From Bacteroidia bacterium (lineage in GTDB: Bacteria > Bacteroidota > Bacteroidia > CAIKAF01): a stretch of 41,658 nt of DNA. Of the stretch, positions 7,360 through 12,379 are shown piece after piece (within the stretch, counting starts at the first letter, position 1; each line of letters opens with the position of its first letter). The notes under the pieces are model-generated. The model searched no databases, was not told where the DNA came from, and worked only from the letters and a program-made list of their open reading frames with translations. The translations under genes and the position numbers were made by a program. The stretch spans positions 1-41,658 of the forward strand of contig JACVCJ010000031.1 of assembly GCA_016742095.1 (NCBI GenBank). Direction: 5' to 3'.

Positions 7360-8403
7360 TTATTGAAATGCGTTCCACCCGCCGGCCGTCAGGTCACTTA
7401 CGCGGCCGTCCGGGGTTTCGATCTTAATGCCCTCCGAAGCGGCGCTCATGTAGCCGATGATCGTAATATCGGGACTTTTCGAGATCTTTTCGTAGTCGCT
7501 CTGTTTCAGGGTGAACAGCAGTTCGTAATCCTCGCCGCCGTTCAGGGCCGCCACGCCGGGGTGCACCTTCAGTTCTTCGAGGAAGGAGGCCGCCGAAGGG
7601 TCAACCGGTATGCGGTTCAGGTAAATATGCGCTCCCAGCCCGGATGCTTTGCAGATATGCCCGATCTCGGAAGCGAGTCCGTCCGAAATATCCATCATGG
7701 CCGTAGGTTTAATGCCCATTTCGGCCAGTGCGGTAATAATGTCGATGCGGGCTTCGGGTTTCAGCTGGCGTTCCAGTATATAGTCATTGCCGCTCAGGTC
7801 GGGTTGTACGGCCGGGTTGTCCTTGAATATCTGTTTTTCACGTTCCAGCAGGCGCAGCCCGGCATAGGCCGCTCCCAGGTCACCGGTCACACACAGCAGT
7901 TCGCGTTCGGCGGCCCCGCTGCGGTATACGATCTGTTCTTCATCGGCATAACCGATCACCGTGCCGCTGAGTACCATACCGCGTATCGAAGAGGACGTAT
8001 CGCCGCCGATGAGTTCCACGCCGTACTTTTCGCAGGCCGCATGTATGCCTTTGTACAGCTCATCTACCGCTTCCACGGTGAATTTAGCCGAAAGCGCAAT
8101 ATTCATCAGCAGTTGCGCCGGTTTTACGTTCATGGCCAGCATATCGCTGAAGTTCACTACGGCGGCCTTGTAACCCAGGTGTTTCAGGGGTACGTAGGCC
8201 AGGTCGAAATGTACGCCTTCGCACAGCAGATCGGTACTCAGCAATACCTTTTTACCCTGCGGATCGGTCACCGCACAATCGTCCCCGATGCCTTTTATCG
8301 TCTGTTCGTGTACAAATTTCTTCGTTTGGCCGATACGCTCTATCAGCCCGAATTCGCCTATTTGCTGCAGGTTTGTAAGTTCCGGATTCGTTTCTTCGAT
8401 CAT
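7360..8403 (-). CDS. thiL: Thiamine-monophosphate kinase
   Basis: The 347-residue protein has the AIR synthase-type fold of ThiL, which phosphorylates thiamine monophosphate to the active cofactor thiamine diphosphate using ATP. Diagnostic segments are FGLIERI near the N-terminus, GIGDDCAV (Mg/ATP aspartates), LLSTDLLCEGVHFD, then the NFSDMLAMNVKP segment, with MDISDGLASEI in the second half. It is transcribed away from the suf operon and leads into asd. No perfect TAnnTTTG box was found upstream of it on the minus strand. Confidence 0.93.
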   Translation of the reverse strand: MIEETNPELTNLQQIGEFGLIERIGQTKKFVHEQTIKGIGDDCAVTDPQGKKVLLSTDLLCEGVHFDLAYVPLKHLGYKAAVVNFSDMLAMNVKPAQLLMNIALSAKFTVEAVDELYKGIHAACEKYGVELIGGDTSSSIRGMVLSGTVIGYADEEQIVYRSGAAERELLCVTGDLGAAYAGLRLLEREKQIFKDNPAVQPDLSGNDYILERQLKPEARIDIITALAEMGIKPTAMMDISDGLASEIGHICKASGLGAHIYLNRIPVDPSAASFLEELKVHPGVAALNGGEDYELLFTLKQSDYEKISKSPDITIIGYMSAASEGIKIETPDGRVSDLTAGGWNAFQ

Positions 8404-8442: not shown

Positions 8443-8450
8443 TACCTTTG
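8443..8450 (+). promoter_or_regulatory. Candidate -7 promoter box of the suf operon
   Basis: TACCTTTG is an exact match to the Bacteroidota -7 consensus TAnnTTTG. Transcription would start near 8454, giving a leader of about 77 nt before the first gene at 8531. No convincing -33 TTTG is seen. The box lies in the divergent gap between thiL and the suf genes. Confidence 0.65.
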
Positions 8451-8462
8451 CACCGTGGGAGT

Positions 8463-8485
8463 TTATTTAGACTGATTCTAAATAA
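8463..8485. promoter_or_regulatory. Perfect 9-bp inverted repeat in the suf leader, candidate metalloregulator operator
   Basis: TTATTTAGA (8463-8471) and TCTAAATAA (8477-8485) are exact reverse complements separated by CTGAT. The palindrome lies about 13 nt past the TACCTTTG box and just past the predicted transcription start, where a bound repressor would block the suf operon. Its AT-rich shape resembles operators of Fur- or DtxR-class iron regulators; that assignment is inference. An RNA hairpin role is also possible, although the stem is AT-rich and weak. Confidence 0.55.
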
Positions 8486-8530: not shown

Positions 8531-8857
8531 ATGATTACCGTTTCTGATATAGCAAAAGAAAAATTAGAGGAACTGCGCCGTGCCGAAGGGCATGCCGAGT
8601 CGGCTTTCCTGCGCGTAGGCGTGGAAGGCGGCGGTTGTTCCGGGCTTACCTACCAGCTGAAGTTCGACGATGAAATGAAGGCTGACGATAAGCTGTTCGA
8701 AGATAAAGGAGTACAGATCGTAGTGAGCAAAAAGAGCTTTTTATACCTGGTGGGCACCGAGCTGGACTTCAGCGACGGCCTCAACGGCAAAGGCTTTCAG
8801 TTTAAAAACCCGAACGCTACCCGTACCTGTGGCTGCGGCGAAAGTTTCTCGGTTTAA
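8531..8857 (+). CDS. A-type iron-sulfur carrier protein (IscA/SufA/HesB family)
   Basis: This 108-residue protein has the three conserved cysteines of A-type carriers: C36 in GGGCSGLTY, and C100 and C102 in the C-terminal CGCGESF. Such proteins take Fe-S clusters from the SufBCD scaffold and deliver them to client enzymes in the cytoplasm. It is the first gene of the operon and is followed 18 nt later by sufB, which supports a SufA-like role. IscA, SufA and ErpA cannot be told apart from this sequence alone, so no symbol is given. Confidence 0.92.
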   Translation: MITVSDIAKEKLEELRRAEGHAESAFLRVGVEGGGCSGLTYQLKFDDEMKADDKLFEDKGVQIVVSKKSFLYLVGTELDFSDGLNGKGFQFKNPNATRTCGCGESFSV

Positions 8858-8875: not shown

Positions 8876-10321
8876 ATGTCAGACTCGAATAAAATAATAG
8901 ACCAGGCCGTCAGTTCCGAATACAAGTGGGGTTTTTATACCGATCTTGAGAACGATACGGCGCCTCCGGGCCTCAGCGAGGACACCATACGCTTTATCAG
9001 TGCCCGCAAGGAAGAGCCCGGGTGGATGCTCGACTGGCGCCTGAAGGCTTTCCGCGCCTGGGAACAGATGACGGAGCCGGACTGGGCACACGTTCAGTAC
9101 CCGAAGATCAATTACCAGGACATCATTTACTATTCGGCGCCCCGCAAAGGGCCCAAATACAACTCGCTCGACGAGGTGGACCCCGAGATCCTGGAAACCT
9201 TCAATAAACTGGGGATCTCGCTCGAAGAACAGAAAGTGCTTTCGGGTGTGGCCGTAGACGCGGTGATCGACTCCATTTCGGTAAAGACCACCTTCCGCGA
9301 AAAACTCAGCGAACTGGGCATCGTATTCTGTTCCATGAGCGAGGCAATTAAAGAATATCCCGAACTGGTAAAGAAATACCTGGGTTCGGTAGTGCCCGTG
9401 CGCGATAACTACTTTGCCGCACTCAACTGCGCCGTGTTCAGCGACGGTTCTTTCGTATACATACCGAAAGGCGTACGCTGCCCGATGGAACTGAGTACCT
9501 ATTTCCGCATCAACGCCATTAATACCGGGCAGTTCGAGCGTACGCTCATTGTGGCCGACGAAGGCAGCTATGTAAGTTACCTGGAAGGCTGCACCGCCCC
9601 CATGCGCGACGAGAACCAGCTGCATGCCGCCGTGGTGGAACTGGTAGCCCTGCGCGATGCCGAGATCAAGTACAGCACCGTACAGAACTGGTACCCCGGT
9701 AACAAGGAAGGCAAGGGCGGTATCTACAATTTTGTGACCAAACGCGGTATCTGCAAAGGCGATAACAGTAAAATATCCTGGACGCAGGTAGAGACCGGTT
9801 CGGCCGTTACCTGGAAGTACCCCAGCGTGATCCTGAAAGGCGATCACAGCATCGGGGAGTTCTATTCGGTGGCGCTGACCAATAATTTTCAGCAGGCCGA
9901 CACGGGCACCAAAATGATACACCTGGGCCGCAATACACGCAGTACCATCGTGTCCAAGGGTATATCCGCCGGTAAAAGCAACAACAGTTACCGCGGACTG
10001 GTAAAGATAGGCCGTGAGGCGGAAGGCGCGCGCAATTTCTCACAGTGCGACAGTCTGCTCATCGGCAGCACCTGCGGCGCACATACCTTCCCGTACATCG
10101 AATGCGATAACCCTTCGGCCAAAGTGGAACATGAGGCCACTACCAGCAAAATTGCCGAAGACCAGCTGTTCTACTGCAACCAGCGCGGCATCAATACCGA
10201 AAAGGCCGTAAGCCTTATCGTGAACGGTTATTGTAAGGAAGTATTTAACCAGCTGCCCATGGAATTTGCCGTGGAAGCACAGAAATTACTCAGTATCTCG
10301 CTCGAAGGCAGCGTGGGATAA
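8876..10321 (+). CDS. sufB: Fe-S cluster assembly scaffold protein SufB
   Basis: The 481-residue length is typical of SufB, which with SufC and SufD forms the SufBC2D scaffold that builds Fe-S clusters. Recognisable segments include [15 protein letters not shown], the [18 protein letters not shown] beta-helix entry, and the C-terminal block with [19 protein letters not shown] then [11 protein letters not shown]. The latter contains the cysteine and glutamate/histidine region involved in cluster formation. It lies between the A-type carrier gene and sufC (33-nt gap). Confidence 0.97.
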
Positions 10322-10354: not shown

Positions 10355-11107
10355 ATGCTCACTATAAAAAATTTACATGCATCCATCAATGGCAAGGAGA
10401 TCCTGAAGGGAATCAACCTCGAGATCGCTGCCGGCGAAGTGCATGCCATTATGGGACCCAACGGTTCCGGAAAAAGTACCCTGTCGTCCGTGCTGGCCGG
10501 CAAGGAAGACTATGAGATCACACAGGGCGAAGTGATCTTCCGCGGTAAAGATCTGCTGGAACTTTCGCCCGAAGAACGTGCCGGCGAAGGCATTTTCCTG
10601 GCGTTTCAGTACCCGGTGGAAATTCCCGGTGTTAGTATGACCAATTTTATGCGTACGGCGGTGAACGAAGTACGTGAGTACCGCGGTCTGGACGCACTGG
10701 ACGCCAAAGCTTTCTTGGCGCTGAGCAAGGAAAAACAGGCCCTGGTGGAACTGGATAAAAAACTGGCCGGACGTTCAGTGAATGAAGGCTTTTCGGGCGG
10801 TGAGAAAAAACGCAACGAAATTTACCAGATGGCCATGCTGAATCCCTACCTGTCGATCCTCGACGAAACGGACAGCGGACTCGATATCGACGCCCTGCGC
10901 ATCGTGTCCGAAGGGGTGAACAAGCTGAAAAGCGCGGAGAACGCCTTCCTGGTGATCACGCACTACCAGCGCCTGCTCGATTACATTGTGCCCGATTTTG
11001 TACACGTACTGTACGACGGCCGCATTGTGAAAACGGGACCGAAAGAACTGGCCCTGGAACTCGAAGACAAAGGCTACGACCACATTAAAAAAGAAGTAGA
11101 AGCTTAA
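10355..11107 (+). CDS. sufC: Fe-S cluster assembly ATPase SufC
   Basis: This 250-residue ABC-type ATPase is soluble and drives conformational change of the SufB-SufD scaffold. It has a Walker A motif (GPNGSGKST), a variant ABC signature ([10 protein letters not shown]) and a Walker B motif ([16 protein letters not shown]), the SufC-specific form. It is followed after only 9 nt by sufD, which implies coupled expression. Confidence 0.97.
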
Positions 11108-11116
11108 TCCGGTCCT

Positions 11117-12379
11117 ATGCTTACAGAAACACAGGTAAAAACCGCCGGATGGGGAAACACGGAAGTGCAGGCCCTGCGTGCCCGTGCCCTGGCCTTTTTT
11201 GAGGAAAAAGGCCTGCCCGAGGTGAAGAACGAACTGTATAAATACAGCAATATACAGCGGCTGTTTACGGAGAACGGCTTCCGCGAAACGGAGCTGAAGA
11301 CCGCAACAGATACGCTGAGCCTGCCGGAACTGCCTTTTGCCACTTCCGGTACACTGGTACTGTACAACGGCGTATTTCAGCCGGCTTTGTCCGTACTGCC
11401 CGCGGGCGTGGAAGTACAGGCCGCCGGAACTATACTGAACGGTTCGCTGGCCGCACAGACCTTTGCCCTGCCCGAGCCCGATGCGGTGAAAGCGCTGGCC
11501 CTGGCTACGGCTTCCGAAGGTGTGGCCCTGCTTATCGGGGAAAACGTACAGGTTGCAAAACCGCTCCTGGTATTTTCGTATACAGATGTGGAAGATGCGT
11601 CCTCGCTGGCTTCCCTGCATGTGCTCACAGCCGGTAAAAATGCGTCGGCCTCTGTACTGATGCTGCACGCGCACGCTGCGGAAAAACGTTTCTTTGCGCA
11701 GCAGGTATGGCAGTATTTTACGGCCGAAGGAGCCGCCCTGCGCGTGTACGATATGCAGAACGAAGGCCCGGAAAGCTACACCATTAATCATTTTTCGGCC
11801 CTGCAGGCAGCGAACAGCACTTTTTCGCTCACAACCTCCAGCACCGGTTCTGCCTTTATGCGCAACAACGTGCGTGCTGAACATGCCGGCGAAGGCTGTC
11901 ACACCGAGCTCAACGGGCTTTTTATGCCTTCGGAAGGGCAGCACATCGATAACCGCACCTTTGTAGGGCACATGTTCCCCAACTGTACCAGCGACGAGCT
12001 GTACAAAGGCATTGCCGCTGCGAACGGTAAAGGCGTTTTCAACGGGAAGGTTTACGTGGCCCGCGATGCCCAAAAGACCAATGCCTACCAGAGCAACAAG
12101 AACGTACTGCTGAGCCGCGAGGCCACCATCAATTCCAAACCCGAACTCGAAATTTATGCCGACGACGTAAAATGCAGTCACGGCAGCACCACCGGTCAGC
12201 TCGATGAACAAAGCATTTTTTATATGCAGGCCCGCGGCATACGCCAGGCCGAAGCCCGTAAACTGCTGCTGCTGGCCTTTGCCAACGACGTGTTCGAACG
12301 TATTCCCGATATGGAATTGCGTGCCTTTTTTGAAACAGAGGCCGGACAACGTTTTGCCGCCCTGTACAGGAGTCGTTAA
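11117..12379 (+). CDS. sufD: Fe-S cluster assembly protein SufD
   Basis: The 420-residue protein is a SufB paralogue and the second beta-helix subunit of the SufBC2D complex. The N-terminal helical part contains GLPEVKNELYKYSNI. The C-terminal half has the family block SNKNVLLSREATINSKPELE, then ADDVKCSHGSTTGQLDE with the conserved histidine, then ARGIRQAEARKLLL. It is the last gene of the operon, closed by the hairpin at 12425-12447. The cysteine desulfurase (sufS) and sufE genes, which often follow in Bacteroidota, are not present here. Confidence 0.95.
   Translation: MLTETQVKTAGWGNTEVQALRARALAFFEEKGLPEVKNELYKYSNIQRLFTENGFRETELKTATDTLSLPELPFATSGTLVLYNGVFQPALSVLPAGVEVQAAGTILNGSLAAQTFALPEPDAVKALALATASEGVALLIGENVQVAKPLLVFSYTDVEDASSLASLHVLTAGKNASASVLMLHAHAAEKRFFAQQVWQYFTAEGAALRVYDMQNEGPESYTINHFSALQAANSTFSLTTSSTGSAFMRNNVRAEHAGEGCHTELNGLFMPSEGQHIDNRTFVGHMFPNCTSDELYKGIAAANGKGVFNGKVYVARDAQKTNAYQSNKNVLLSREATINSKPELEIYADDVKCSHGSTTGQLDEQSIFYMQARGIRQAEARKLLLLAFANDVFERIPDMELRAFFETEAGQRFAALYRSR

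Follow-up and report, generated by a model that had tools for sequence, protein, structure and literature searches.

A predicted Fur box below the suf promoter of a Bacteroidia bacterium and related boxes upstream of respiratory operons

What is the role of a perfect palindrome lying between the promoter and the first gene of an iron-sulfur cluster assembly operon, and which regulator is likely to read it? The question is raised by a 41,658-nucleotide stretch of DNA from a Bacteroidia bacterium (contig JACVCJ010000031.1; the whole stretch is hereafter called the window), which carries such a palindrome ahead of a sufABCD operon.

The palindrome and the suf promoter

Direct reading places the palindrome, TTATTTAGA-CTGAT-TCTAAATAA, at 8463-8485, with arms at 8463-8471 and 8477-8485 on either side of the CTGAT spacer (8472-8476). 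We annotate these 23 bp, on neither strand in particular, as a predicted Fur box, a palindromic operator TTATTTAGACTGATTCTAAATAA, on the basis of its sequence, recurrence and conservation and of the R. anatipestifer Fur box given in PMC5609570. Upstream, on the plus strand, lies an exact TACCTTTG (8443-8450), read directly as the Bacteroidota-type -7 box of the suf operon (consensus TAnnTTTG), and no clear -33 TTG was found upstream of it. An earlier note on this DNA had described perfect 9-bp arms around a 5-nt loop in front of the Fe-S operon, about 13 nt after an exact promoter box; arms, loop, position and box are all confirmed, while the gap is in fact 12 nt.

The ATG of sufA follows at 8531, 45 nt 3' of the palindrome. 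All four genes are on the plus strand: sufA (8531-8857), the first of the operon and coding for a HesB/IscA-type carrier (TIGR00049, 122 bits); sufB (8876-10321; NF008773 SufB, 918 bits, above the curated cut-off); the ABC ATPase gene sufC (10355-11107), assigned from operon position and with relatives found by similarity; and sufD (11117-12379), assigned by position, the SufB query also matching G000:C14:11801-12313 in the host genome. The divergent neighbour on the minus strand is thiL, for thiamine-phosphate kinase (7360-8403; TIGR01379, 300 bits). Control of thiL was considered as well, yet this gene is probably not the target of the palindrome, as the conserved -7-box geometry belongs to suf.

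Whether such a repeat could be fortuitous depends on what is counted. Counting inverted repeats whose arms measure 9 nt or more within 20 nt gives 60 in the window, among them a second 9-5-9 repeat at 11191-11213, so that the hairpin geometry alone is not special, a caveat on the chance argument of the earlier note. The palindrome pattern itself, on the other hand, has a single match in the window at up to three mismatches, and none in 100 dinucleotide shuffles. What lies beyond chance is the exact sequence together with its recurrence in the host genome and its conservation at the suf promoter of relatives. A chance palindrome was rejected on the unique window match, the lack of reversed-control matches in the genome and the conservation in relatives.

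Recurrence and conservation of the site

Genome-wide scans, carried out with the pattern under mismatch limits and not with a matrix, found five sites at no more than two mismatches in the host genome, against none for the reversed control. Besides the suf site (window 8463-8485), they lie at actA, which codes for a cytochrome c subunit and is first in the alternative complex III operon (L146:2693), at sufE (L147:5099; SufE from a family scan, below the models' cut-offs), at a NarL/LuxR-type response regulator gene (L148:5516-5538, contig C69; regulator from a family scan) and at sdhCAB (L149:7597; SdhC from a family scan). The act operon was called from a multihaem cytochrome c gene, below NCBIfam cut-offs, followed by one for a large subunit with a TAT-like start, recognised by eye. 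The genome-wide search proposed in the earlier note thus led to iron and Fe-S genes and not to random sites.

The comparison of suf leaders among related species, proposed there too, showed the arms to be conserved. SufB homologues occur in 58 of 60 relatives, and a matrix score of at least 10 is reached upstream of suf in 45 of 55, of act in 41 of 54 and of sdh in 23 of 55; several of the negatives are truncated by contig ends (e.g. G001, G007 and G010), and the 66 sites from which the matrix was built, first picked by simple mismatch count, are included among the scored positives. The host suf site scores 31.9 of a maximum of 34.0, and none of 76,680 positions in a coding control, where DNA is less AT-rich than between genes, reached even a score of 6.

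The same comparison bears on the idea that the palindrome works as RNA, with a hairpin in the 5' leader of suf making the message more stable or governing its translation. The leader does fold well, at -15.6 kcal/mol (z -3.3), and pairing between the flanking GGGAGU and AUUCCC adds to the fold. However, arm changes at the suf sites of relatives break pairing in 46 cells and compensate in one (compensated to broken cells are 4 to 56 at act and 6 to 42 at sdh), the flanking stem is missing in the relative G005, and the copies at act and sdh stand upstream of the promoter, from which they would not be transcribed. With no Rfam match for the suf leader and arms that do not covary, a hairpin or riboswitch was rejected, and we regard the RNA reading as hardly credible.

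Searching 84,980 species genomes for the exact pattern gave at least 120 stretches. Among the matches listed, nearly all belong to Bacteroidota and close kin (Ignavibacteria, Balneolaceae, Chloroherpetonaceae), with a few strays in other phyla. Adjoining genes in named genomes, again among the matches listed, code for TonB-dependent receptors and FeoB (both named by similarity or by eye), or are fur, sufA/B/C, actA, nqrA and hemA; others listed are genes for solute-binding proteins of iron-ABC type and for LuxR-type regulators.

Some of these contexts merit separate mention. The box lies about 1-50 nt from the start of a LuxR/NarL-type response regulator gene in several families (L148, L154, L158, L215, L222, L246), pointing to a further level of regulation below Fur. 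In Flavobacteriaceae it is found between hemA and a divergent AraC-type gene (L188, L192, L256, L263, L267, L280), with the hemA-side TAnnTTTG 152-154 nt from the box; hemA serves the first step of haem synthesis, and two-way control of this pathway is possible. Three Flavobacteriaceae carry an exact box 28-31 nt before the gene of a 114-119-aa protein (L184:4430-4786, L185:6441-6794, L211:4837-5178), whose L185 copy has no Pfam match. Finally, in G005 a box immediately precedes the start of a 350-aa haem-handling protein with ChuX/HutX and HemS domains (L153:3936-4985).

Fur as the probable regulator of suf

We take the palindrome to be, very probably, a Fur site of the type found throughout the Bacteroidota. 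Its 19-bp core, ATTTAGACTGATTCTAAAT, is identical at 17 of 19 positions to the R. anatipestifer Fur box ATTTAGAATTATTCTAAAT, both arms being perfect (PMC5609570), and Fur of that species binds promoters with ATTTAGAATTATTCTAAAT-like boxes in gel shifts (PMC5609570, PMC10986502). The host site shares with this published box the palindrome, the phylum and the closeness to a start codon, lying at a promoter and less than about 100 bp from the sufA ATG. The earlier note had proposed an iron- or redox-responsive operator controlling suf, whose iron-responsive form conservation and the iron and Fe-S gene contexts strongly support at the level of sequence, and had named both Fur- and DtxR-family proteins as candidates, of which Fur is favoured and DtxR is not. 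Its remark that such sites are poorly described in this phylum does not hold, given the box already published for R. anatipestifer (PMC5609570, PMC10986502). The Fur box as a site type is thus already described in Bacteroidota, and its placement at suf is an instance of it, which now ties this known site type to Fe-S assembly in most of the sampled families of the class.

At G000:C62:81661-82020 the host genome carries a gene for Fur, whose product matches PF01475 at 103 bits and has Fur proteins as its closest solved structures. No NCBIfam equivalog (Fur, PerR, Zur) reaches its cut-off on this protein, and the assignment therefore rests on Pfam, PDB neighbours and co-occurrence. Concerning the last, among 197 genomes of the class the site is absent in 7 of 10 without a strong Fur and in 18 of 187 with one (p = 2e-5, kinship ignored, and with the strong/weak cut, E about 1e-15, set after the table had been seen). 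Under a plain cut, no PF01475 match at all, it is absent in four of five genomes against 21 of 192 (p = 0.001); the Fur-less set spans few lineages and three of its genomes share a genus, which leaves only a small number of independent losses. Exceptions occur in both directions: G043 has well-placed boxes at suf and act and no Fur gene was found in it, perhaps through an assembly gap or a replaced regulator, while all sampled members of family f43, as well as G032, G075 and G084, have Fur and no box at up to two mismatches, and in these the operator specificity may have shifted. As to autoregulation, no site scoring at least 10 was found at fur in the host genome or at the other fur loci fetched; in two named genomes a box precedes a fur gene (L167, L212).

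Presence and absence also allow other regulators to be weighed. An operator for a DtxR/IdeR/MntR-family repressor sensing iron or manganese would suit an AT-rich palindrome before an iron-related operon, and DtxR-family proteins are encoded in the host genome. Yet 11 of 60 relatives lack DtxR and 10 of these 11 retain sites (e.g. G001, G006, G022, G047, G054; Fisher p = 1), and the sequence fits the Bacteroidota Fur box backed by gel shifts (PMC5609570). As site presence does not track DtxR presence, DtxR was rejected, and we consider this reading quite improbable; from sequence and co-occurrence, the regulator is best identified as Fur. An Rrf2-family Fe-S sensor of IscR/RirA type, which would act here as at suf or isc of Proteobacteria, appears highly improbable: although IscR governs Fe-S assembly operons elsewhere and three Rrf2 matches occur in the host genome, there is no match in 28 of 60 relatives, many of which keep the suf site (G002, G004, G005, G008, G009, G011, G013), and the same site also stands at uptake receptors and respiratory genes. 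Rrf2/IscR was rejected on this presence/absence pattern.

With Fur as the preferred regulator, the most likely role of the palindrome is to shut down iron-sulfur cluster assembly in iron-replete cells. When iron is ample, an Fe2+-loaded Fur dimer would bind just downstream of the suf -7 box, the operator covering about +6 to +28 if transcription starts some 7 nt after that box, and would block initiation or promoter escape, keeping suf low; upon iron starvation Fur would be released and suf induced. In 38 of 45 suf sites of relatives a TAnnTTTG box starts 1-24 nt before the operator, which puts the operator where a repressor acting by roadblock or occlusion is expected to sit. Binding by Fur, the iron signal and the direction of control are what we infer from sequence, conservation, gene contexts, spacing and Fur co-occurrence, all of which are observed.

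Expression data from the phylum can be set beside this model. In R. anatipestifer at low iron, suf transcripts rise, and those of sdh and of the quinone-binding subunit of a cytochrome c oxidoreductase fall (PMC5609570); a low-iron decrease of sdh is also reported for P. gingivalis, P. intermedia and B. thetaiotaomicron (PMC10434189). Both directions fit Fe-Fur repressing suf and activating sdh and act. The suf and sdh response persists, however, in the R. anatipestifer fur deletion strain (Tables 2 and 3 of PMC5609570), which counts against Fur as sole regulator in that species; as the genes are iron-responsive without fur, either another input acts there or the promoters lack the box.

Respiratory operons and comparison with known systems

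At act and sdh the box stands above the promoter. Measured from box start to TAnnTTTG, 59 of the 60 offsets between 40 and 90 amount to 52-55, 63-68 or 75-78 nt, with windows centred near 54, 65.5 and 76.5, about one helical turn apart; at a few promoters the sole TAnnTTTG lies farther off than this range. Reduced to one value per gene and family, the 39 values have a best-fitting period of 11.2 and are more phased than every one of 20,000 uniform simulations. Spacer identity between families averages 27-43%; the distance is therefore kept, the spacer sequence largely not. One between-family value of 1.0, involving G018 and G056, is to be disregarded, as their identical-letter sites are possibly one DNA stretch. 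Among the matches listed, independent named genomes have actA offsets of 65-67 and nqrA offsets of 76-78 (NqrA by Pfam). This nqrA box, which precedes the Na+-NQR gene at an act-like spacing (L166, L182, L247, L249), makes Na+-NQR a probable further Fur-activated respiratory complex.

If the -7 box starts near -12, box centres fall near -54, -65 and -76, positions that the alpha C-terminal domain of the polymerase can reach, as established for other activators (review PMC3788343). Fur bound upstream of the act and sdhCAB promoters, and of the nqrA promoter in other members of the phylum, would probably activate these iron-rich respiratory complexes, and the spacing statistics, which support such an activator mode well, imply that Fe-Fur may do so directly while repressing suf. 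We consider it reasonably probable that Bacteroidota Fur acts two ways with the sign set by position: at or below the promoter it would repress iron uptake and suf, and from one face of the helix, about 54, 65 or 76 bp upstream, it would directly activate alternative complex III, succinate dehydrogenase and Na+-NQR. It would do so probably by touching RNA polymerase, a contact which we infer from the spacing.

Fur might instead serve at the act, sdh and nqr boxes as an anti-repressor, or act indirectly, making no contact with RNA polymerase, an account that competes with the activation half only. Anti-repression is an established Fur mode (ftnA, norB; PMC3788343), and the sdh iron response outlasting the loss of Fur in R. 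anatipestifer (PMC5609570) would suit it. On the other hand, helical-turn spacings over unconserved spacers at two unrelated promoters, and again at nqrA, argue for stereospecific polymerase contact, and we hold anti-repression to be a serious but rather unlikely competitor. Taken as a whole, the best explanation, with a probability of roughly 0.87, is that the palindrome is a Fur box, that Fe-Fur represses suf, and that upstream boxes activate act, sdhCAB and nqrA. The palindrome would thereby lead to a phylum-wide iron regulon, in which a box below the suf promoter represses and boxes above respiratory promoters apparently activate.

The part that is new here are the helically spaced upstream activator boxes predicted at act, sdh and nqrA, within the scope of the open-access literature, where we found no work joining Fur, alternative complex III and Bacteroidetes. 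Contact between Fur and RNA polymerase has been stated to be not known (review PMC3788343), and the helical series makes it directly testable. The boxes are also a candidate cause of the low-iron drop of sdh in gut and oral Bacteroidota (PMC10434189). A different spacing, with the box starting 47-50 nt before TAnnTTTG, is found at a number of receptor and suf genes (L234, L236, L206, L271, L239, L197). It departs from the 52-55 activator position by about half a turn of the helix, and the boxes concerned may be repressor sites that adjoin the -33 element.

Among known systems, the ICE box of alphaproteobacterial Irr, itself a Fur-family protein, reads TTTAGAA-N3-TTCTAAA, and its half-sites are very similar to those of the palindrome. 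The host Fur, however, scores 38 bits where the Irr models have a cut-off of 170, and so falls far short of it. Within the phylum, the Fur-box list of PMC5609570 has no suf, sufE, sdh, act or nqr, unlike the boxes described here, and the upstream activator position, a predicted feature of the host and its relatives, is not described for R. anatipestifer in the passages considered. Neisseria, Helicobacter and Vibrio offer a closer parallel, in that one Fur box, by its location, decides between repression, when overlapping the polymerase site, and activation, when upstream (nuoA/norB, oorDABC, ompT; PMC3788343). Their activator sites, however, lie about 90-130 bp upstream of single promoters, and nearly 200 bp at Salmonella hilD (PMC3788343), whereas the Bacteroidota boxes form a helical series that recurs in dozens of families, at about 54-76 bp upstream as estimated from -7 boxes. 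In outcome, the arrangement would resemble the iron-sparing small RNAs RyhB, FsrA and NrrF, which reduce iron-rich enzymes such as succinate dehydrogenase when iron is short. There, Fur acts via a small RNA that it represses, while here a Fur box stands directly at the sdh and act promoters; if our reading is true, Bacteroidota would possess a direct transcriptional iron-sparing response that dispenses with a RyhB-like small RNA.
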